Shown here in pieces: positions 18,220-32,929 of a stretch of 32,929 nucleotides of DNA; position 1 is the first letter of the stretch, and every line of letters begins with the position of its first letter. The stretch comes from a virus. A program made the position numbers and the translations under genes. The stretch spans positions 1 to 32,929 of IMG/VR virus record IMGVR_UViG_3300032278_000063, one strand, 5' to 3'. The notes below the pieces were generated by a model, which worked only from the letters and a program-made list of their open reading frames with translations, was not told the origin of the DNA and made no database searches.

Positions 18220-18327
18220 ATGTGTAAAGAATGTGGAATGGCTTACAGCTTTGTTTTTGGAGTGCAGTTCCATAAAAAGGATTGCTCTCAAGGAAAGGGA
18301 GGATTTTATGTCTCATCGAGGAAATGA
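18220..18327 (+). CDS. 35-aa zinc-ribbon-like microprotein
   Basis: ATG at 18220, preceded by TTAAGGAGTTTGAGT. The product starts MCKECGMAYSFVFGVQFHKK. Cys2, Cys5, His18 and Cys22 make a C-x2-C-x12-H-x3-C set that could hold one zinc. It overlaps the next gene by 20 bases. The good ribosome site and operon position support it; role unknown. Confidence 0.5.
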   Translation: MCKECGMAYSFVFGVQFHKKDCSQGKGGFYVSSRK

Positions 18328-18604
18328 AAATGCAATTGACAGGCTGAGAGATCAGCATCAGGAAATGGGATTCTTATCCCCGAAAGACAAGTCGGATCGA
18401 CAGCGCAGAATAATGAACAAATTTGTTCATTGCTATAATCTCATTCGGGAAGAATGGTTTCCAATGCCAGTTGAGTATCCAATCTATATGACTACAGAAC
18501 AGGCAGAAATCTTTGGAGCTTTGAATGCTCTATATCTAGAGTGCATGAAAGAAATCAAAGACTTGGAAATCAAGGAGCAAATGCTCCATGAATATACTGC
18601 CTAA
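18308..18604 (+). CDS. Hypothetical 98-aa protein
   Basis: Starts MSHRGNENAIDRLRDQHQEM; AAGGGAGG lies five bases before the ATG at 18308. A longer frame exists upstream but would read through the microprotein gene without a ribosome site. The C-terminal half is helical (QAEIFGALNALYLECMKEIK). Last gene of the unit, followed by a hairpin overlapping its stop. Confidence 0.65.
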   Translation: MSHRGNENAIDRLRDQHQEMGFLSPKDKSDRQRRIMNKFVHCYNLIREEWFPMPVEYPIYMTTEQAEIFGALNALYLECMKEIKDLEIKEQMLHEYTA

Positions 18605-18717: not shown

Positions 18718-19149
18718 ATGTTAGACCAGTACGACCAAGATAAAGTTGATTACTTTAGCCAGTTCGATGGGATGCCCGAAACTGAGAAAGTTAGCCAGAA
18801 TGCTATCAGGAGATATGTTGGGACTAGAGGGCTTGCAGTCTGGATTGACCTATATTGGGACAAGACAGGTTGGGGAAAGAACATTAGAACTAACGGAATT
18901 TGGACAGCCATCCTAAGAGATGTTGATGGCAATCAAGTTGATAGCGCAACCTACTATGGAGACTATCAGAAGTACGCAGTTGAAGAAACCAAGAAACTTG
19001 CTGATACCCTCAGAATTGATGAAATTCGGTTAGAGCGCAAGAACTCAAATGGGAATTTTCAATACTTGGTTAGGAGTAGGCACATTATTTCAGCAGACCG
19101 TAGTGGGGACAAACTCACTGATTGGACAACTGCAAAGTGGGTGAACTAA
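18718..19149 (+). CDS. Hypothetical 143-aa protein, single-gene unit
   Basis: Starts MLDQYDQDKVDYFSQFDGMP. The middle has IRTNGIWTAILRDVDGNQVDSATYYGDYQ, a beta segment that may bind a partner, and the end is LVRSRHIISADRSGDKL. It has its own strong operator-controlled promoter, so it is likely an early host-takeover or regulatory protein. Its stop overlaps the end of the convergent Com-like gene by two bases. No family recognised. Confidence 0.7.
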   Translation: MLDQYDQDKVDYFSQFDGMPETEKVSQNAIRRYVGTRGLAVWIDLYWDKTGWGKNIRTNGIWTAILRDVDGNQVDSATYYGDYQKYAVEETKKLADTLRIDEIRLERKNSNGNFQYLVRSRHIISADRSGDKLTDWTTAKWVN

Positions 19150-19256
19150 CCAACCGTATTGCGGTGCTTGCATCTTGAGCAAACTATGACGGTTCCTTTG
19201 GATGCAAGTTCCGCTAGTTTTTTGTTGCAGTTACGACAGCGCAATTCCTTAGTCAT
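19146..19256 (-). CDS. Com-like zinc-ribbon microprotein
   Basis: A 36-aa protein, MTKELRCRNCNKKLAELASK followed by a second Cys pair. Cys7/Cys10 and Cys26/Cys29 form CxxC-x15-CxxC, and RCRNCNKKLAE ... CSRCKHRNTV matches the phage Mu Com family (zinc-finger mRNA-binding proteins that switch on mom translation). The ATG shares bases with the terminase stop (TGATG); an in-frame ATG at 19262 would add two residues. It lies last in an operon that also encodes a GNAT protein, the fold class of Mom, although they are not adjacent as in Mu. Com-like proteins of unrelated role are common near terminases. Confidence 0.7.
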   Translation of the reverse strand: MTKELRCRNCNKKLAELASKGTVIVCSRCKHRNTVG

Positions 19257-20575
19257 CACCATATGCCATATCCTGCCATCGGGATAAAAGTCATCGCAAG
19301 AGCATCTGCCTCGTCAGGAGATTTGCTGAGTTCCTTTTTGGATTGAAGTATTAACCTTCGATCTGACTGTATTGAATATCCACGAGTGGTAAGCTGACCA
19401 ATTAAGGAATCCTCATTTGGGATTTGACCATTTTCGCCTAACCACTCACGAAGCATCCACCATGATTCTGTTATCGCATTAGAAAACCTATCATGCTGAT
19501 CTGCTCTTGAGCCACCCTTGAAGGGAACAAGGTGACAGTTAACCCCAATCTCTCCAAGACGATCCGTGACTCCACCACCAAGACCAGTATCATCGACAAC
19601 CATGTAGTCAACATGATTGTCTTCAGCATACCTGCCGAGCCACCCTGCAATCTCCATGAGATTCCTACCCTGCACCTTATAGATAATGTCAGCGACATCA
19701 CCTTGTCTACGAAAAACTACTGTTGAATCTTCACCAAATCTAGCAACGTCACATGAAACAATCACTTCCCCCGAAGGTTGATTGATTCGTTGTTTAGCTT
19801 CCATGACTAGGCTTAAAGGAATCACAACATCATCCAAGTTATCAGGAAATTGTCCCAAGACTGACGCCTTGTACATCGCTGAATCTTCACCCCACTCCCT
19901 TTTCCTGTCCTCAATATCTTCAAGATTTATCATGCCTTCAACAACCTCACGCCCTGCTTGGACATTTGGAGTATCGAATGCACTAACCTGCAATGTGCCA
20001 TATAAGTCACGCATCGAATGATGAGAGTCGTAGAATTCTCCCTGTGTTGCAAAGGGGTTGCCAGTCAATAGAGTACATTTGGCATTAAGTCTTCTGAGTG
20101 CTTCAACATCTGGTTGCTTTACAGCATGAGCCTCAGTAATGACTACGAGTAAATTCGGCGAATGGAATCCCTGTAAGTTCATCGGGTCTGATGAAACAAC
20201 TCCAACAGCAAAATGTTGTTCATCGAACATCCATCGAGCAGATGACGGTAGCATCCTTCCACCTAATGGAACTTTTGCATTATTGAACGCAAACCTTGTT
20301 TCATTCCAGACTATGTCATTAACCTGCCGAGCAGTTGGACCTGTCACAATAACTTTTGCAGGATAATGAGTGAGCATCCACCAGAGGACTATTCTTCCAG
20401 AAGTCCAATCCTTACCAGAGCCGTTACAACCTGCAATTGAAACTCTGCGATGAGATTGAGTTAATTCAAATTGCTCAATCTGCTTGCTGTAAGGATTCGC
20501 TCCTAATACTTCCTTCAAGAAGAATCTTGGGTTCTTCATCGCTTTCGCTATACTGGACTGTTCCTTCGTTACCAT
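19256..20575 (-). CDS. Terminase large subunit
   Basis: A 439-aa packaging ATPase/nuclease. Walker A is GCNGSGK at residues 49-55. The Walker B position reads LLVVITEAH (142-150), with Thr147 where an Asp is normal and the catalytic Glu148 kept. The nuclease half has Asp276 (SCDVARFGEDST), Asp328/329 (VVDDTGLGGG) and Asp421/424 (SPDEADALA). The start ATG at 20575 (GCGGAG upstream) overlaps the small subunit by 101 bases; ATG 20539 has no ribosome site. It would cut and pump DNA into the prohead through the portal. Confidence 0.9.
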   Translation of the reverse strand: MVTKEQSSIAKAMKNPRFFLKEVLGANPYSKQIEQFELTQSHRRVSIAGCNGSGKDWTSGRIVLWWMLTHYPAKVIVTGPTARQVNDIVWNETRFAFNNAKVPLGGRMLPSSARWMFDEQHFAVGVVSSDPMNLQGFHSPNLLVVITEAHAVKQPDVEALRRLNAKCTLLTGNPFATQGEFYDSHHSMRDLYGTLQVSAFDTPNVQAGREVVEGMINLEDIEDRKREWGEDSAMYKASVLGQFPDNLDDVVIPLSLVMEAKQRINQPSGEVIVSCDVARFGEDSTVVFRRQGDVADIIYKVQGRNLMEIAGWLGRYAEDNHVDYMVVDDTGLGGGVTDRLGEIGVNCHLVPFKGGSRADQHDRFSNAITESWWMLREWLGENGQIPNEDSLIGQLTTRGYSIQSDRRLILQSKKELSKSPDEADALAMTFIPMAGYGIW

Positions 20576-21044
20576 ATCGCTCCGCTACTTTGGCTAATTC
20601 GATGATACTCATATGTAAAGGATTATCTTCAGTTCCCATATCAGGGTTAATATCCAGACCATTCATCTTTCTCATTTCACTAAGGATACGCAAAACTCTA
20701 TCGACAGCAAATTCGTCAGCAGGGATTTCGTCTTGTGAAACCTCACCACGTTCATTCCGCCTTGCAGGTGTACCGACTGCTCTTGCCCACATCCGCATTA
20801 AAAGACGCTCATATCGCTGATTAAAAATACCACGCAACATTTGAGCGCCCTCTTGATTACCTTCTGCCATTTCACCAAGAACAGTCTTAATATCTTTGGC
20901 AACTTGGACATGGCTGATCTTTTCGCCCCTTGCCGTAAGGCTTTGAGCAATTTGTCGGGTTGTTGCGCCACCAATTGCCATCTCAAGTATTTGCTGACGG
21001 CGTTTTCCTATCTCAAGCTGTCTTGCCCTAGATATTGGCGACAT
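20475..21044 (-). CDS. Terminase small subunit candidate
   Basis: A 189-aa protein directly upstream of and overlapping the large subunit. The N-terminus has an HTH of terminase small subunit type: IGKRRQQILEMAIGGATTRQ followed by QSLTARGEKISHVQVAKDI. The middle is helical with Arg-rich stretches (QRYERLLMRMWARAVG), and the end is acidic. GGGGAG lies upstream of the ATG, which overlaps the ParB-like gene by 17 bases. Assigned from position and HTH; the fold family is not certain. Confidence 0.7.
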   Translation of the reverse strand: MSPISRARQLEIGKRRQQILEMAIGGATTRQIAQSLTARGEKISHVQVAKDIKTVLGEMAEGNQEGAQMLRGIFNQRYERLLMRMWARAVGTPARRNERGEVSQDEIPADEFAVDRVLRILSEMRKMNGLDINPDMGTEDNPLHMSIIELAKVAERYGNEGTVQYSESDEEPKILLEGSIRSESLQQAD

Positions 21045-21810
21045 TATCTACTGCTCCCCTGCAAAGTGTTAGGAGGTTTTGAGCAGGGCTATCTCCTAAA
21101 ACCTGCTTAACAATCTCAGCTTCCGTTCCGCTAAACGTCATATTCAATCTAAATATGTCAGCATCTCTTCGAATCGCTTGTTTTTCCTCATCAGTTTTTG
21201 CCTGTTGAAGTTCTTCTTCCATTTTACGGACACGTTTAAGAGCGTCAATAGTTTGTGTACTAGAAGATGTTGCGTCTTCATGGTCATCGTCTGATGCTAC
21301 TGGTATCCATGCCTCTGCAAATTCCTCAGATGCCAAAGCCTCTGGTGCAGGTATGTCTTCCAGTAATAAATTTATCTCAGTATCGTCAAGCATTAGAGAA
21401 TCCTGCGCCCAATCTAGTGCGCCGAGTTCCTGTAGATCCCTGAGAACTTGTGCGGAAAGATCGACATCTTCTGAACCCCTTGCTCGATTATGACGTAGGG
21501 TTGCAATCTTCATTTGCTCTGGAGTCATTTGCACAAACACAACTGGAATTGGATCAATGTCTAATTCGCTTGCCGCTCTCCATCTATGTTCACCGTCCAC
21601 GATTTGTTTCGTGTCCCTGTGAACAATAATGGGCTGAGTAAAACCGTCTTCTTCCATAGATCGAAGCAACAGTTCAAAGTCATGGTCACTTTGCCGATTA
21701 GGATTGTAATCATTTGGGCGTATTGAATTATGTGAAACATACTCAATATTAAGTGCGCCAAGAACCTCGTTCTTTTTTTCTACTTGAGCCTTACCTTTTA
21801 TTCGTGCCAT
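21028..21810 (-). CDS. ParB/Srx-fold domain protein
   Basis: A 260-aa protein. Residues 20-110 hold a ParB N-terminal domain: IRPNDYNPNRQ, the FTQPIIVHRDTKQIVDGEHR core with GEHRWRAA (73-80), then PVVFVQMTPEQMKIATLRHN. After about 190 comes a charged coiled-coil-like helix and a short C-terminal domain. Phage ParB proteins without a ParA partner often lie next to PAPS reductase-like or methyltransferase genes and terminases, and can act as nucleases, CTPases or modification partners. No ParA is present. AAGGAATAAAT precedes the ATG. Confidence 0.85.
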   Translation of the reverse strand: MARIKGKAQVEKKNEVLGALNIEYVSHNSIRPNDYNPNRQSDHDFELLLRSMEEDGFTQPIIVHRDTKQIVDGEHRWRAASELDIDPIPVVFVQMTPEQMKIATLRHNRARGSEDVDLSAQVLRDLQELGALDWAQDSLMLDDTEINLLLEDIPAPEALASEEFAEAWIPVASDDDHEDATSSSTQTIDALKRVRKMEEELQQAKTDEEKQAIRRDADIFRLNMTFSGTEAEIVKQVLGDSPAQNLLTLCRGAVDNVANI

Positions 21811-21812
21811 AT

Positions 21813-22100
21813 TTATTCCTTATATATAGATTTCATGTCTCTTGGGGCATCCTCTTTTGCTCTATTGATTGAGGCGTTCCCACTTTTTGATTTATCAAAA
21901 ATCCAATATCTGAAACCCCCACGATTCCAATATTGATAATCATAACCTCTAAAATTTGACGTATATCCTTCCGCTTGGATAAGAGTTTTTAGAGTGTCAT
22001 GAAGGTCAGGGTTTTGAGGTTGCATGAAATATTCATGTTCCCCCGAATGTTTGGTGGGCTTCCAGTATTGTTGAGATATAAGTTCATCAATGTGTTCCAT
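21813..22100 (-). CDS. Hypothetical aromatic-rich 95-aa protein
   Basis: A compact protein with many Tyr/Trp: GYTSNFRGYDYQYWNRGG, then FRYWIFD and a conserved-looking SINRAKED. It overlaps the GNAT gene by 14 bases and ends two bases before the ParB-like gene. Such tight packing between a GNAT and a ParB gene suggests a shared task. I do not recognise a family. Confidence 0.7.
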   Translation of the reverse strand: MEHIDELISQQYWKPTKHSGEHEYFMQPQNPDLHDTLKTLIQAEGYTSNFRGYDYQYWNRGGFRYWIFDKSKSGNASINRAKEDAPRDMKSIYKE

Positions 22101-22515
22101 CCCATAACTCCTGTCTCAATTTATAATAACCACGACCATTAAAAGTTTTATATTCTTTACCATCCCAATGATAATTCAACCGCACAAAAATACGATGCTC
22201 AGCAGTCTTAACCGTAAACTTATCAGCCCCGAACTCAAGTGCCAGACGTTCTTGTTCTTTTACCAAGTAAGAACCCAGACCATTCCCCCGATAATCAGGA
22301 TGTACAAATAACCCTCTGCCATGTGCTGTTTTACCTCTCATTAAAATCCCGATACAACCGAGCAAATGTTCTGTTTCAGCATCAACACATTTATACCAAT
22401 GGATTGGAATCTTACCTTCAGAGATTTGGCTCGTATTATTAGATTCCATTTCATTGAAATGAGCAATCTCAGATAGTTGACATTTTTGTATTTTATAACC
22501 TCGTTTTGTCACCAT
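22087..22515 (-). CDS. GNAT-fold acyltransferase-like protein
   Basis: A 142-aa protein. The GNAT core is clear: GCIGILMRGKTAHGRGLFVH (strands 4-5) and PDYRGNGLGSYLVKEQERLA, whose RGNGLG is the Q/R-x-x-G-x-G/A acyl-CoA loop. The usual last K-x-GF motif is replaced by LNYHWDGKEYKTF. I chose ATG 22515 (GGAGGT upstream) over a TTG at 22536. It overlaps the PAPS reductase-like gene by 7 bases. Phage Mu Mom is a GNAT-like DNA-modifying enzyme, but ordinary acetyltransferases look alike at this resolution. Confidence 0.8.
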   Translation of the reverse strand: MVTKRGYKIQKCQLSEIAHFNEMESNNTSQISEGKIPIHWYKCVDAETEHLLGCIGILMRGKTAHGRGLFVHPDYRGNGLGSYLVKEQERLALEFGADKFTVKTAEHRIFVRLNYHWDGKEYKTFNGRGYYKLRQELWDGTH

Positions 22516-23672
22516 GCAGGTTTCCCACCTCCCCAAGTCCCTGCACCTTCTCTGAAAAATGAAGGTTCTACATAGGGAAGGTTCGTCTTGAAGGCAAATG
22601 GGTCACCGTTGTACATAGCTTCCGCTAATTTTTTCCAACTTCCTATTGAACCTTGACAGGTTTTACAGGGATTTACTTCTGGAAAATCGGTAGTGCTATG
22701 TCTTGAGTGCGTTCCTGTATACGATTCCATCGCAGTAATCGCCCTCTGCTTGATCCAATCGGCAGGAGCTTCATCAATACATTCTCGTTTATAGGTTTGT
22801 TCCCACCCTTCACCCTTTTGTCTTTGCGGAGTTATGGCACGTTTTCCAAACATTGCCGCAGTTCTTGTTCCCTCACAACGGTCAGCAACTAGATCAAACC
22901 ATTTAGGCCATGCTTTTGAAGCAAGCGTCAAATGGTCAACACCTGCTGAGGTCATAGTTGGGGGACCTATTCTCAACCTGCTTGGTGTAACTCCAAGCCT
23001 CCGCATAGTGTCATATGCCTTGCAGTAATCGAGATCAAATTCATGGATCATCCTAAAGACATCCCCATGACGCCAATCATAAATTGGTCGTGCATTTCGA
23101 ACACCGCTTTTATTAGCTTTCGTGATGTACCCTTTAGATGAAAATAAACCATACATCCTAGCTGTACTTTCCTGAGTTCTCAGACCAATAACCGCATAAG
23201 TATCTTTACCTTCTACAGCAGGGAACTTTTCTGAGGTAGTCATCTTTTCAATATTTAATTCTTTGATGGGCGTATACCATGATGGTGGTTTTCGAACCCA
23301 TTTGTCAGGGGACAGCTCTGGATCAAAAACCCAGAAGTATGGATTAATCCTATTAAAGACATTCAATATAGGTTGATTTGCTACGAGCCAAGTAAGGTCT
23401 ACCTCTGGTCTATTCGCTGTCCTTTCGCAGAATTCATATAAATCTGGAAAGGCTATCTCTTCGTCACGCATGACAACTTCTACAGGAAGCCTATTGGTTT
23501 TAGTTGCCGCTATGATGGCGCATTCTAAGACAACCGTAGAGTCCTTACCACCAGAAAATGAAACAACTAACCGATGCCCTTCAGCGTAGAGTTTTTCTAA
23601 TCGCTCAATTGCTGATGTTAAAACATTTTGACCTGTGGGTTGCTTGATCTGCCGAGCTTTAAGTAGTGCCAT
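22509..23672 (-). CDS. PAPS reductase / ATP pyrophosphatase family protein
   Basis: A 387-aa protein with the PP-loop SFSGGKDST at 38-46, a following VMRDEEIAFPDLYEFCERTA segment, GLRTQESTARMYG (the G-R-x-x-ES-x-x-R motif of PAPS reductase-like and DndC proteins) and ARPIYDWRHGDVFRMI. Cys336 and Cys339 (NPCKTC) could help hold metal. It is longer than CysH (about 240 aa). Such proteins activate a substrate by adenylation; in phages they often stand near ParB, GNAT and terminase genes and are suspected of nucleic-acid modification. There is no sulfate-assimilation context here. Confidence 0.85.
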   Translation of the reverse strand: MALLKARQIKQPTGQNVLTSAIERLEKLYAEGHRLVVSFSGGKDSTVVLECAIIAATKTNRLPVEVVMRDEEIAFPDLYEFCERTANRPEVDLTWLVANQPILNVFNRINPYFWVFDPELSPDKWVRKPPSWYTPIKELNIEKMTTSEKFPAVEGKDTYAVIGLRTQESTARMYGLFSSKGYITKANKSGVRNARPIYDWRHGDVFRMIHEFDLDYCKAYDTMRRLGVTPSRLRIGPPTMTSAGVDHLTLASKAWPKWFDLVADRCEGTRTAAMFGKRAITPQRQKGEGWEQTYKRECIDEAPADWIKQRAITAMESYTGTHSRHSTTDFPEVNPCKTCQGSIGSWKKLAEAMYNGDPFAFKTNLPYVEPSFFREGAGTWGGGKPAW

Positions 23673-23691: not shown

Positions 23692-24375
23692 CTATTTTTT
23701 ACCCTTAATAATAAGAAACTCTTTCATCTTCCCAAATAAAAATACGTCTTGGATGGTCAGTCGATCTCCTAAGTTGTGAGCCTCGGTAGCTACCTCTGCC
23801 TCTGTCACAGGGAAGGTGATGTTATCGACCACTTGGTCGTGAAGTATTCGTGAGCTATGCCCATTAGCATATAGCATCACCATAAATCTACCTCGTGGGC
23901 TCAAGGTTCTGCTCAGGATATCGAAGGCATCTCCTAGCGGAACATATGACAGCGAACCGAATAGAGCCACGACATAATCGTAGTTCCCAAAGCCCATCAT
24001 CTGCCTGACGTCACAGTTGATAAAGTCATAGCTTGGATGCTTCTGCTGAGATACCTTCACCATTTCCCAACTGACATCTACCCCTATGTAATAAGGATGC
24101 ACGATACTTCCTGATAAATGATCGAGCAATAAGCCTGTTCCAGAACCTATGTCCAAGACGTTGCCGTCAACCCTGTTAGTGCCTTCCCTATAAGAGAAGA
24201 AACTCTTCTGCATATACGACATGAGTTCAGCATTTTCTTCCAGACAACGCTCATCTCCATAGAAGCTGTCGTAGTTTTGAGCTACTTGATCATAGACAGA
24301 GCGTACGTTAAGCGGTGATGGTGTTAACTCTTCACGCACTTTATTCGATTCATAGGAAGAAGCATTTCTATACAT
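23692..24375 (-). CDS. Class I SAM-dependent methyltransferase
   Basis: A 227-aa protein. VYDQVAQNYDSFYGDE precedes motif I, VLDIGSGTG (73-81). YIGVDVSWEMV, DFINCDVRQM and YDYVVALFGSLSYVP follow as motifs II-IV. The catalytic D/N-PP-Y/F motif of amino-methylating DNA methyltransferases is absent, so a small-molecule or modified-base substrate is more likely than direct DNA adenine methylation. It overlaps the nuclease gene by 8 bases and precedes the PAPS reductase-like gene by 20. Confidence 0.85.
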   Translation of the reverse strand: MYRNASSYESNKVREELTPSPLNVRSVYDQVAQNYDSFYGDERCLEENAELMSYMQKSFFSYREGTNRVDGNVLDIGSGTGLLLDHLSGSIVHPYYIGVDVSWEMVKVSQQKHPSYDFINCDVRQMMGFGNYDYVVALFGSLSYVPLGDAFDILSRTLSPRGRFMVMLYANGHSSRILHDQVVDNITFPVTEAEVATEAHNLGDRLTIQDVFLFGKMKEFLIIKGKK

Positions 24376-24691
24376 CGGTGTTATCCGTTAATTCTTGGAC
24401 TAAGAAAAATCGTGCCTTTGCTCCTCTAGTATAGACCTTGATAATACCTCCGAACTTCTTACCCGATTCTTTTGAGGCGTTTTCACCTTGTGCTACTGCG
24501 TTCCTGATCCATACTGGAACAGTTGTTTGAGTGCTCTTAATCTCGTAGACGTGAGTGTTATTTTCAACATCAGTATGAGGTCTAGACTTGTCTAAATTTC
24601 TCCAACCGTTGACTAATTCAGCTGATCTTTTTTCGTAGATTTTACCTCTAGCTCGGTTGTTTCTGTTTATCCTTTTTCTAGTATTGTCCAT
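24368..24691 (-). CDS. PD-(D/E)XK nuclease-like protein
   Basis: A 107-aa protein. I took ATG 24691; a longer TTG frame to 24727 would cover the operator. Glu20 in a helix (RARGKIYEKRSAEL), Asp41 and Glu50-Ile-Lys52 (THVYEIKST) make the active-site layout of Holliday-junction resolvase and restriction-like nucleases. A Lys/Gly-rich loop and a closing strand (KARFFLVQE) follow. A role in DNA branch resolution before packaging or in host DNA attack are both possible. An operator-like sequence overlaps its start codon. Confidence 0.7.
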   Translation of the reverse strand: MDNTRKRINRNNRARGKIYEKRSAELVNGWRNLDKSRPHTDVENNTHVYEIKSTQTTVPVWIRNAVAQGENASKESGKKFGGIIKVYTRGAKARFFLVQELTDNTDV

Positions 24692-24706
24692 TGACAATAG
24701 GTTAAC
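24690..24706. promoter_or_regulatory. Operator-like site over the nuclease start codon
   Basis: ATTGAC-AATAG-GTTAAC on the plus strand, i.e. the operator arms with a 5-base centre. It is followed by AGATACG as at 17523-17529, but no -10 follows in either direction. It could act as a transcription roadblock rather than a promoter operator. Confidence 0.5.
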
Positions 24707-24720
24707 AGATACGACACCCA

Positions 24721-24756
24721 TTAACAATACTGCCCCTGTTAAGGGGCGTATGTTAA
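24721..24756 (-). terminator. Bulged hairpin before the nuclease gene
   Basis: TTAACAATACTGCCCC pairs with GGGGCGTATGTTAA (14 bp, two single-base bulges, 6-base loop). It shares TTAACAATACTG with the hairpin at 15837-15873. It separates the replication block from the nuclease/modification/terminase block. Confidence 0.55.
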
Positions 24757-28473: not shown

Positions 28474-28487
28474 GGATAGTGTATCAT
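28459..28487 (+). promoter_or_regulatory. Promoter of the DUF932 gene
   Basis: TTGCAC (28459-28464), 17-base spacer, TATCAT (28482-28487), then TATATAGAGAAA as the early transcript. The leader of about 80 bases carries GAGCGACCAA and ends in AGGAGG before the ATG. Confidence 0.75.
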
Positions 28488-28574
28488 GGGTATATAGAGA
28501 AAAAACCAATAGACCGCCCAAATAGGAGTAGAAGCGGAACATACGAGCGACCAATAATCAACAGGAGGCATAAA

Positions 28575-29624
28575 ATGCCCGCAGAAATTACGATGACCGC
28601 AGATAAAGCAGAATTCGCATACAGTCAAGGCTCGGGAATTGAGCCGTGGCATGGACTAGGAAGTAAAGTTCCAGTTGAGGCGATGACAGCTGAAGAAGCC
28701 ATAGAAGCGTCTGGAATGGGTTGGGGCGTAGAGAGGAAGGAAGTCTACGTTATGGAATCCAAGAAACAGGGGCGCAAGAACATTGAAGTCCCTGTATCAG
28801 TTGCAGGTAAAAGAGCAATTGTTCGAGATGACACTCAACAGGTTTTTGCCATAATGGGCGAACACTACACTCCAGTCCAGAACATCGAAGCATTTAGCTT
28901 TTTTGATTCTGTGATAGGAAATACAGATGCGAAATATCATACCGTTGGAACACTCGGCGGTGGAAGACGAATCTGGTTGATGGTGAGACTACCAAATGAG
29001 TTGAAGTTAGATAATGGACATGAGATTGTTCAGAATATTTTGCTAACAAATTCTCATGATGGGACATCAGCCCTGAGAATTGACCACACTAGAGTCAATG
29101 TGGTTTGCGCCAATACCTTGAGCATGGCTCTAGCCAATGCAAGAGGAAATGATTTTAAGTTCCGTGCCAAGCACACTTCCATGATACTGGACAGGACTCT
29201 AGAGGCACGAAATCTTCTAGGATTACTGGATGCTACGAATGAGTTATTTATCAATGACTGCAACAGGTTAATTGATACGAAGTTCACGATTAGCGATATG
29301 GAAGAATTGGCTCGTGATATTTGGGCGCCGAAAGGCTACGATGCCGATAAGGAATTGAAAGGTGTTGCAAGAGTTGCAGTTGAAAAACTGACAGACCTGT
29401 TCACCGAAGGTGTCGGAGTTGAAGGTCAGAGCGCATTTGATGCTTACATGGCAATTACTGAATTCACCGACCACTACCGACCAATTGGAAGAAGCCTTGA
29501 CAGTCTTGAAGACACTTCTCCAGAGGCTATGGAATCCAGAGTTTTTAACTCTTGGTATGGTGGCGGACAGCGCATAAGACAAAGGGTTTTTGACAGCTTG
29601 CGTGAGAAGGCAGGAGTTCTGTAA
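28575..29624 (+). CDS. DUF932 family protein
   Basis: A 349-aa protein starting MPAEITMTADKAEFAYSQGS. AGGAGG precedes ATG 28575; a longer frame overlaps the promoter and is rejected. IEPWHGLGSKVP and MGWGVERKEVY, then FAIMGEHYTPVQNIEAFSFF and NILLTNSHDGTSALRIDHTR with VCANTL are the typical DUF932 (phage/plasmid-like protein, TIGR03299) pattern. The function is unknown; members are common in phages and plasmids. The position under an exposed divergent promoter suggests early, strong expression. Confidence 0.9.
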   Translation: MPAEITMTADKAEFAYSQGSGIEPWHGLGSKVPVEAMTAEEAIEASGMGWGVERKEVYVMESKKQGRKNIEVPVSVAGKRAIVRDDTQQVFAIMGEHYTPVQNIEAFSFFDSVIGNTDAKYHTVGTLGGGRRIWLMVRLPNELKLDNGHEIVQNILLTNSHDGTSALRIDHTRVNVVCANTLSMALANARGNDFKFRAKHTSMILDRTLEARNLLGLLDATNELFINDCNRLIDTKFTISDMEELARDIWAPKGYDADKELKGVARVAVEKLTDLFTEGVGVEGQSAFDAYMAITEFTDHYRPIGRSLDSLEDTSPEAMESRVFNSWYGGGQRIRQRVFDSLREKAGVL

Positions 29625-31548: not shown

Positions 31549-32929
31549 TTACTCATTGGTCACGGTTACTGTTGGAGCACCAATAAGCACCTCAACATTG
31601 TCACTAACATTCCAGTTGGCTGCGGTGACGCTCTGGTTAATCTTAAATTCCTTAGTAGCAAATCCATCCGAAACACCTGCATTACCTCCGCCACCTACTT
31701 CATTAAGCTGAATAGTCAATGTTCCAATCTTCATTTTATCGAAGGAACAAGAACCTCCTTCGGTATATAGATTACTCAGGACTAACTTATCAATCTTTCC
31801 ATTTGTTGCGGTAGTTGGAGCATCAATATGGATTCGGTCATATGAACCTCCAGAAGTAACCATCGCTTCAGCCTGATGATGACCTCCACCGATTGCTCTC
31901 ATCCTAGAAGTTCCCGGAGTCTGGTTTATGCTTTGACCATCTGAAGCATTTCCAATGACATTGATAGTGTGAGCAGTAATATTATCAAAGTACATAAACG
32001 TACATCTGGACTTTTCAATTAGCATTTCACCTACTTCTAGGACAGTGTCAGTACCTCCAGAGACTACCGTTCCACCAATCAATATTGCTGTGGCACTAGC
32101 CGCAGTTCCTCCAGCAGAAGTATGAGCAGAAGACGGTATTGCTCCTCCAGTATAAATAGTTCCAACTGTGACATTTTCGATGCGAATCTCCCTGACAGGA
32201 GTAGTGCCAAGAACAATCCTCAACGTATTATCTTCTTTGCCTAATCCACTATTCTCCTGTCTCCATGCCATAGTCTGTTCAAGAGTAGGGTCTGGATGTT
32301 GTGCAGGGGCTGAATAAATACCTGAGTCTCCATTGCTAAAACTTCTTTCAGCCAAGATTGTTTCGTTGACTGCCACACCTGCTCCTGCCGTACCTCCGAC
32401 CGCTAATAATCCTATAGCCATCTGTGGGGATAGCCCCATCATTCTTAAAAAACTATATGGTGCTTTTGCAATATTGAATGCGGTTTTCCACTTGGCACTT
32501 TCTGCGTTTAAATACTCCACTTTGGAGATAACCCAATTTCTCCAAACAGTTATTTTTTTATAGGCGCTGATGGGACTTCTTACAAGTACCATTGGAGTAG
32601 CTTTAAGCGTTCTCCACCATGTTCTAAAGTTTCTAACATGGATAATGAATCCCAAAACTATCAAGCCGATTGAACCAGATATAGTCCAGACAAAATTCGC
32701 TTGAGCGGAAAGTATCGTATCGAATACAAACTGGTCAGTTATAACAAACCATGCTTCAGTTCCAAATATATTTTCCCATCGGAATGGCAAAACTGGAGAC
32801 AACCAATGAATGACATTGCCAATCTGATACTGGTCGATAAAGGAAATAGCTACGCCAATGACACCTGCAAGAACCAGAAGTACAGTCGTAATAGAGGCTA
32901 AAACCATCCCTATGACACGCAGGATTTTT
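31549..32929 (-). CDS. Large membrane-anchored beta-rich protein (5' end at 1..79)
   Basis: The frame is open to the window end; the first internal ATG is at 32907 with a poor ribosome site. Joined to 79..1 across the shared TTTTT it gives 484 aa. In the joined protein there are membrane segments at about 30-56 (VLASITTVLLVLAGVIGVAI), 100-122 (WTISGSIGLIVLGFIIHV) and 193-213 (IGLLAVGGTAGAGVAV). From about 255 on come short Gly/Thr/Ser-rich beta repeats (IRIENVTVGTIYTGGA, HTINVIGNASDGQS, IDKLVLSNLYTEGG) resembling a beta-solenoid. Unknown function; possibly an envelope-associated or virion surface protein. Confidence 0.7.
   Translation of the reverse strand, partial: KILRVIGMVLASITTVLLVLAGVIGVAISFIDQYQIGNVIHWLSPVLPFRWENIFGTEAWFVITDQFVFDTILSAQANFVWTISGSIGLIVLGFIIHVRNFRTWWRTLKATPMVLVRSPISAYKKITVWRNWVISKVEYLNAESAKWKTAFNIAKAPYSFLRMMGLSPQMAIGLLAVGGTAGAGVAVNETILAERSFSNGDSGIYSAPAQHPDPTLEQTMAWRQENSGLGKEDNTLRIVLGTTPVREIRIENVTVGTIYTGGAIPSSAHTSAGGTAASATAILIGGTVVSGGTDTVLEVGEMLIEKSRCTFMYFDNITAHTINVIGNASDGQSINQTPGTSRMRAIGGGHHQAEAMVTSGGSYDRIHIDAPTTATNGKIDKLVLSNLYTEGGSCSFDKMKIGTLTIQLNEVGGGGNAGVSDGFATKEFKINQSVTAANWNVSDNVEVLIGAPTVTVTNE

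Follow-up and report, generated by a model that had tools for sequence, protein, structure and literature searches.

The viral fragment analysed here (IMG/VR record IMGVR_UViG_3300032278_000063; 32,929 bases, referred to as a whole as the window) carries on its minus strand a compact row of genes encoding a class I S-adenosylmethionine (SAM) methyltransferase (MT1), a PP-loop ATP-pyrophosphatase of the 3′-phosphoadenosine 5′-phosphosulfate (PAPS) reductase/IbrA group (PAPSR), a GNAT-fold acetyltransferase, a 95-residue protein and a ParB/Srx-domain protein (ParB). Judged by gene content and order, this row represents a modular cassette widespread among phages, which sits beside the packaging genes but, by the same comparison, is not tied to them, and which probably hypermodifies phage DNA after replication. 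PAPSR, the best-known member of the cassette, is probably usually mistaken for a sulfur-metabolism gene. Viral cysH has been reported among the commonest auxiliary metabolic genes (AMGs) and, in Baltic sediments, as the most abundant AMG 'not involved in DNA modification' (PMC9301287). If the branch to which the window belongs is a DNA-hypermodification core, part of the viral cysH literature on sulfur metabolism would need re-reading, and its uncharacterised enzymes and new 95-residue domain would become testable makers of new DNA bases, of use in DNA chemistry and in the study of how phages escape restriction. No description of the whole cassette was found in the open-access literature.

Conservation of the cassette

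A search of IMG/VR with PAPSR and ParB profiles retrieved 126 loci, corresponding to 97 non-redundant loci including the window, among which were distinguished a long branch (ParB of about 260-300 residues, PAPSR 45-58% identical to that of the window) and a short, IbrA/IbrB-like branch. PAPSR lies upstream of ParB on the same strand in every non-redundant locus with a downstream ParB (47/47 in the long branch and 38/38 in the short branch; one further locus, with ParB elsewhere only, stands outside these counts), and an MT1 homologue is found directly 5′ of PAPSR in 29 of the 37 long-branch loci with enough upstream sequence. The original prediction, an earlier reading of the window from its letters alone, had called for a search for conserved co-occurrence, and such co-occurrence was found: dozens of other viral contigs share the gene order, so that the cluster of the window is not a product of chance.

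The interval between PAPSR and ParB measures at least 250 bp in 33 of the 47 long-branch loci, and 31 of these 33 intervals contain one or more genes of a recognised set: the 95-residue family (16), an N6/N4 DNA methyltransferase (N6MT; 15), a glucosyltransferase-like protein (15), GNAT (two, in the window and in locus L022) and, rarely, a second ParB or MT1. The N6MT cargo of the relatives matches PF01555 N6_N4_Mtase (expectation value E=1.1e-6) and phrog_498 (E=3e-13), and the glucosyltransferase-like cargo matches phrog_854 (E=4.7e-13). Two long-branch intervals (L071 and L080) harbour a 2-oxoglutarate (2OG)-Fe(II) oxygenase (PF13640 E=7.9e-8), and in L037 a further GNAT lies between the 95-residue protein and N6MT, while the interval of the window itself holds GNAT and the 95-residue protein. 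In the short branch, PAPSR and ParB abut in 32 of the 38 pairs, and the 95-residue family lies between them in four; its recurrence in both branches upholds the earlier suggestion that this protein is a component of the system. Much larger short-branch cassettes, with several glucosyltransferase-like and several ParB genes around PAPSR, are found in L089 and L091.

A correlation of pairwise sequence distances links PAPSR to ParB (rho 0.34) and to MT1 (0.29) but not to the large terminase subunit (TerL; 0.03), permutations giving a mean of 0 and a standard deviation of about 0.07-0.10. Since PAPSR co-varies with ParB and MT1, and not with the terminase, the cassette appears to travel as a unit.

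In a scan of bacterial and archaeal genomes, the long branch was found in metagenome-assembled genomes labelled Kapaibacterium, Bacteroidetes, Ignavibacteria, Planctomycetota and Gemmatimonadetes; the first three keep the order MT1-PAPSR-95-residue protein-N6MT-ParB, followed by a terminase-like gene. The short branch is more widely spread in the same scan, and in Listeria genomes (L155, L158, L159 and L166) an MT1-like methyltransferase gene comes after the PAPSR-ParB pair. Distant relatives of PAPSR are encoded in 215 of 50,697 isolated phage records; because all of these are below 60% identity, no isolate in that collection has a close copy of the long cassette. Among the matches listed, PAPSR is about 23-30% and ParB about 34% identical to the window proteins, and GNAT used alone as a query found no match among the isolated phages. 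Streptococcus phage CHPC1230, Pseudoalteromonas phage XCL1123 and Flavobacterium phage FPSV-F7 are isolates in which the PAPSR-ParB pair stands bare.

Organization of the gene cluster

The original prediction had described a packed cluster of seven genes, from PAPSR to a Com-like zinc-ribbon gene (Table 1). This cluster is real: all seven open reading frames (ORFs) are present on the minus strand, with spacings ranging from a 101 bp overlap to a 2 bp gap. Its start has to be moved, as MT1, only 19 bp upstream of PAPSR, belongs to the conserved unit. Because neighbouring genes are separated by anything from a 101 bp overlap to a 19 bp gap, a single transcript is likely. Profiles confirmed PAPSR, GNAT, ParB and TerL as named, while the small terminase subunit (TerS) is assigned by position only, since its sole good profile match is phrog_645, labelled 'Rnase E', and the Com-like peptide falls below the Pfam cut-off. 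The 'Rnase E' label of phrog_645, matched by this protein in the TerS position (20475-21044, minus strand), may itself be wrong.

Table 1. Genes of the cassette and of the adjoining packaging region in the window
Feature	Coordinates	Strand	Evidence
MT1, class I SAM methyltransferase, first cassette gene	24375-23692	-	PF13649 E=1.2e-10
PAPSR, PP-loop ATP-pyrophosphatase of PAPS-reductase/IbrA group, core enzyme	23672-22509	-	PF01507 E=2.6e-13; phrog_2302 E=1.3e-53
GNAT-fold acetyltransferase, alternative cargo enzyme	22515-22087 (ATG, preferred; TTG at 22536)	-	PF00583 E=7.8e-11
95-residue protein, new small-domain family 'HEYW' (...H.Y...Y.YW...N...)	22100-21813	-	family found via PAPSR neighbours
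ParB/Srx-domain protein, 260 residues	21810-21028	-	PF02195 E=1e-12; phrog_498 E=7.1e-26
Probable small terminase subunit (TerS)	21044-20475	-	position directly upstream of TerL; phrog_645 E=7.8e-13
TerL, large terminase subunit	20575-19256	-	phrog_2 E=5.9e-35
Com-like zinc ribbon, 36 residues, probably outside the cassette	19256-19146	-	Mu Com match, 48% identical across 29 residues

The PP-loop enzyme

The AlphaFold model of PAPSR (predicted local distance difference test, pLDDT, 90.8) displays a PAPS-reductase fold, for which the best match is the PAPS-like domain of flavin adenine dinucleotide (FAD) synthase (Z 15.8), followed by adenosine 5′-phosphosulfate (APS)/PAPS reductases (CysH) and CysD (Z 13-14), TilS (11.5) and GMP synthetases (about 11); a search of PDB sequences with the PAPSR profile returned nothing significant. 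In 33 PAPSR sequences from both branches, the ATP-site motif S-x-G-K-D-S, E72, W125 and the motif G-x-R-x-x-E-S-x-x-R are invariant, and no cysteine is. The residues C298, C336 and C339, present in 21, 18 and 19 of 22 long-branch PAPSRs, respectively, and absent from the short branch, may possibly form an iron-sulfur (Fe-S) or zinc site in the long-branch enzymes. The C-terminus of PAPSR reads GTWGGKP.W, without the ECGLH motif that carries the catalytic C-terminal cysteine of CysH, and the NCBIfam cysH models TIGR00434 and PRK02090 give 15.7 and 21.3 bits against cut-offs of 165 and 154. An identity as CysH was rejected on these grounds.

The DndC-type sulfur chemistry that had been suggested for the cluster is not supported either. 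The DndC model TIGR03183 gives 17.4 bits, far from its cut-off of 290.4, and the lack of a family-wide conserved cysteine makes sulfur chemistry unlikely as the shared function of PAPSR. Adenylation followed by attack of a nucleophile would be a chemistry that fits the conserved part of the enzyme.

ParB and comparable systems

The ParB of the window matches, over positions 21-187, the ParB half of phrog_498, a family in which ParB is fused to an N6/N4-type DNA methyltransferase domain. Both halves of these fusions have separate homologues in the cassette family, corresponding to the window ParB and to the N6MT of its relatives. Unlike in phrog_498, the cassette genes are separate, N6MT being a gene of its own in the relatives and the Pfam scan showing no methyltransferase domain in the window ParB, and the window carries GNAT in place of the methyltransferase.

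ParB-like proteins have been linked to DNA modification elsewhere. In the insertion of deazaguanine into DNA, DpdA works together with DpdB, a ParB-like ATPase (PMC12839542), and ParB-domain genes neighbour the experimentally demonstrated phage DNA modification-hypermodification genes CmoX/CmoY. The CmoA/CmoX/CmoY system, in which cytosine carboxymethylation is followed by glycine ligation, resembles the scheme proposed for the cassette in its two-step modification-hypermodification, in the use of ATP by one of its enzymes and in the ParB-domain gene that often lies beside it (PMC12783734). It differs in using an asparagine synthetase-like ligase and a C5-methyltransferase, where the cassette has the PP-loop enzyme PAPSR and an N6/N4 methyltransferase, a glucosyltransferase or GNAT. 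In NCBIfam, MT1 had no CmoA match with E of 0.1 or below, and no CmoX/CmoY homologue was recognised among the window proteins scanned, the record being a fragment.

The relation of the window pair to IbrA/IbrB (a COG3969/DUF3440 PAPS reductase-like protein and a ParB) is clear from the gene pairing: the two core genes are shared, usually in the same order, and occur in many phages and prophages. In contrast to IbrA/IbrB, which are known as gene activators only, the window branch has a longer ParB, an upstream MT1 and cargo genes between the pair. DUF3440 was not reported in the window PAPSR by a Pfam scan with E up to 1, in which the HMMER filters drop weak matches. The Dnd, Ssp and BREX type 4 systems likewise contain a PAPS reductase-fold enzyme (DndC, SspD and BrxP), accompanied in Dnd by the ParB-superfamily partner DndB, but the PAPSR family has no family-wide sulfur-handling cysteines, and neither a cysteine desulfurase (DndA) nor DndD or DndE was recognised in the window genes scanned, which are a subset of the ORFs of a fragmentary record.

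Putative tailoring enzymes and the 95-residue protein

The closest solved relatives of MT1 are small-molecule and amine methyltransferases, not DNA methyltransferases, and the best solved match of GNAT, a weak one, is diamine acetyltransferase 2 (E=1.8e-4); these nearest relatives fit enzymes that would tailor a small base-attached group. A GNAT homologue also follows ParB in L149, an Anaerolinea genome. The start of MT1 is overlapped by a gene for a 119-residue protein (24368-24727, minus strand) that has a weak RusA-like match and in which the stretch VYEIKS takes a nuclease-like E-x-K form, and nuclease-like genes are found upstream of MT1 in some relatives too.

The 95-residue protein belongs to no Pfam, NCBIfam or PHROG family and, as a single-sequence query, found no match in IMG/VR or among the isolated phages, the latter result being repeated with two other family members. 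The family was revealed only by alignment through the neighbours of PAPSR, which yielded 38 ORF matches (redundant contigs included) in which H22, G45, Y65, W66 and N79 are invariant and Y24 and Y57 nearly so. The structure prediction proposed earlier gave a confident model (pLDDT 86.5) of a small α-β domain and no clear relative in the PDB; the best fold match, a DUF1480 protein (Z 4.7), is not interpretable, and the lack of a closer match is no proof of a new fold. The family is rare in bacterial genomes (6/296 and 1/291 sampled). The domain is found fused to a class I methyltransferase in viral L091 (3232-4083) and in four of these bacterial genomes (L215-L218; for instance, L215:1462-2292 and L216:907-1890, minus strand), the methyltransferase part of the four bacterial fusions matching the MT1 profile; this fusion suggests a shared step for MT1 and the 95-residue protein. 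No PAPSR or ParB was found in the roughly 3 kb of sequence seen around each of the four bacterial copies.

Relation to the packaging genes and to Mom/Com

In the long branch, 43 loci have 3.5 kb or more of sequence beyond ParB, and in at least 28 of them the start of TerL is no more than 3 kb away, with two more probable cases and five slightly further away; the corresponding count in the short branch is 27 of 35. The terminases beside the cassette fall into several PHROG families. From these comparisons, the cassette moves between phages that have different motors and yet stays ahead of the packaging genes, a position that fits late expression before packaging. In several isolated phages (of Microcystis, Streptococcus and Flavobacterium), no terminase occurs in the annotated stretch around the PAPSR-ParB pair. 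The functional coupling to the packaging motor that had been envisaged, with a modification made or read at packaging, is not supported: the position is conserved, but the terminases are unrelated and their divergence does not track that of PAPSR.

An analogy with Mom and Com of phage Mu had also been drawn, since a GNAT-fold enzyme is probably encoded on the same transcript as a Com-like zinc ribbon. The Com-like peptide does resemble Mu Com (pairwise E=2e-6) and matches phrog_6417 (E=3.8e-6), while Pfam Com PF10122 gives 14.3 bits, below its cut-off of 22.9. In Mu, com (969-1157) lies directly upstream of mom (1078-1803) and overlaps it, whereas the Com-like gene of the window follows TerL, about 2.8 kb from GNAT and without overlap, and no comparable ORF was found downstream of TerL in related loci. 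GNAT itself was discarded as a Mom homologue, the best BLASTP segment to Mu Mom having E=0.17 and the segments not being collinear; it matches the ordinary Acetyltransf_1 profile and keeps the coenzyme A motif RGNGLG. The analogy is accordingly not supported.

Proposed function and alternatives

In the mechanism that we propose, ParB would bring the complex to DNA and control it through nucleotide binding, while the PP-loop enzyme would use ATP to adenylate the base (or the small group to be attached), as TilS, GMP synthetase and FAD synthase do with their substrates, an activation that would let a new side group be joined. MT1 and its 95-residue partner would methylate the added group, and the cargo enzymes would tailor it, with N6/N4 methyltransferase, glucosyltransferase or 2OG-Fe(II) oxygenase in relatives and GNAT, through acetylation, in this phage. 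Co-expression with the late packaging genes would lead to DNA being modified just before packaging, in which the motor itself need not take part, and the likely benefit would be escape from host restriction. A more specific form of this proposal, in which a sulfur-free PP-loop enzyme and ParB adenylate a DNA base and attach a lysidine- or amide-like group for interchangeable tailoring, and in which many viral 'cysH' (perhaps also some 'ubiE/ubiG') AMGs belong to such cassettes, is offered tentatively, as possible rather than probable. Iyer and coworkers (Nucleic Acids Research, 2013) reportedly predicted lysidine-like pyrimidines in phage DNA by comparative genomics, and part of the hypermodification proposal may possibly have been anticipated there.

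Several points weigh against hypermodification. Neither the phage nor any of its close relatives has been cultivated; GNAT is generic by sequence and present in only a few loci; the window has no N6/N4-type DNA methyltransferase beside the cassette; and, as 32 of the 38 short-branch pairs lack cargo, PAPSR and ParB must do something on their own. The distance-correlation test ignores shared phylogeny beyond permutation, and some of the 'next ORFs' used in it may not be TerL. Moreover, the substrates of the tailoring enzymes could be small molecules or proteins of the virion, a proposal made for the methyl- and glycosyltransferases of mycobacteriophage Corndog (PMC4351075). Extended to the whole cassette, this objection becomes an alternative in which the glucosyltransferase, MT1, GNAT and oxygenase decorate virion or host proteins, such as the capsid or RNA polymerase, and PAPSR-ParB is a separate regulator sharing their transcript. 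The cassette does adjoin structural genes, the Corndog enzymes, near portal genes, were proposed to be capsid modifiers, and RNA polymerase is acetylated by phage GNATs, among them Rac of phiKMV (PMC7824862). Nevertheless, the gap between PAPSR and ParB is the specific site at which these enzymes are inserted, as seen in nearly all of the larger intervals, and they alternate with N6/N4 DNA methyltransferases, a kind of enzyme that phrog_498 joins to ParB; we regard protein decoration as unlikely.

The remaining alternatives concern the core pair. Phosphorothioation or another sulfur transfer to DNA of the DndC/SspD/BrxP type, with ParB replacing DndB, would account for the weak BrxP and DndC matches and for a pairing that recalls DndC with DndB, and the three near-conserved long-branch cysteines could hold an Fe-S cluster; these cysteines are, however, missing from the short branch and, one or more of them, from some long-branch members, and the shortfall against the DndC model and the lack of recognised Dnd partners among the window genes scanned render this explanation decidedly unlikely. 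That the pair is instead an IbrA/IbrB-type transcriptional co-activator of phage late or prophage genes, with ParB binding DNA without modifying it, is suggested by the annotation of phage homologues as IbrA and IbrB, 'co-activator of prophage gene expression', but is improbable in view of the invariant ATP-pyrophosphatase motif and the enzyme cargo, which point to catalysis, and a co-activator effect could itself result from DNA modification. The customary interpretation of viral cysH in virome papers (PMC9301287, PMC10434257), namely an AMG boosting host sulfate assimilation, with neighbours that are unrelated, draws on the PF01507 match and on the fold similarity to CysH/APS reductases; it is the hardest to reconcile with PAPSR, given the missing cysteine and ECGLH motif, the low cysH scores and the tie to ParB, which holds wherever both genes were found and for which sulfate assimilation offers no explanation, and we consider it highly improbable.

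Other features of the window

The window contains no tRNA genes. Tail, capsid, protease and portal genes lie on the minus strand, and the cluster sits upstream of these. Two plus-strand genes, at 18233-18604 and 18718-19149, run towards the end of the cluster; the former had no match in PHROGs and the latter none in Pfam, PHROGs, NCBIfam or PADLOC. A 381-residue protein encoded at 28479-29624 on the plus strand, opposite to most genes, matches phrog_1221 (unknown function; E=3.9e-70), and a 452-residue protein (31549-32907, minus strand) without a PHROG match is hydrophobic in segments near its N-terminus and repetitive in its C-terminal half. In the tail region of the minus strand, two pairs of related proteins (8600-9019/9029-9742 and 289-1089/1326-1673) are probably the result of duplications.

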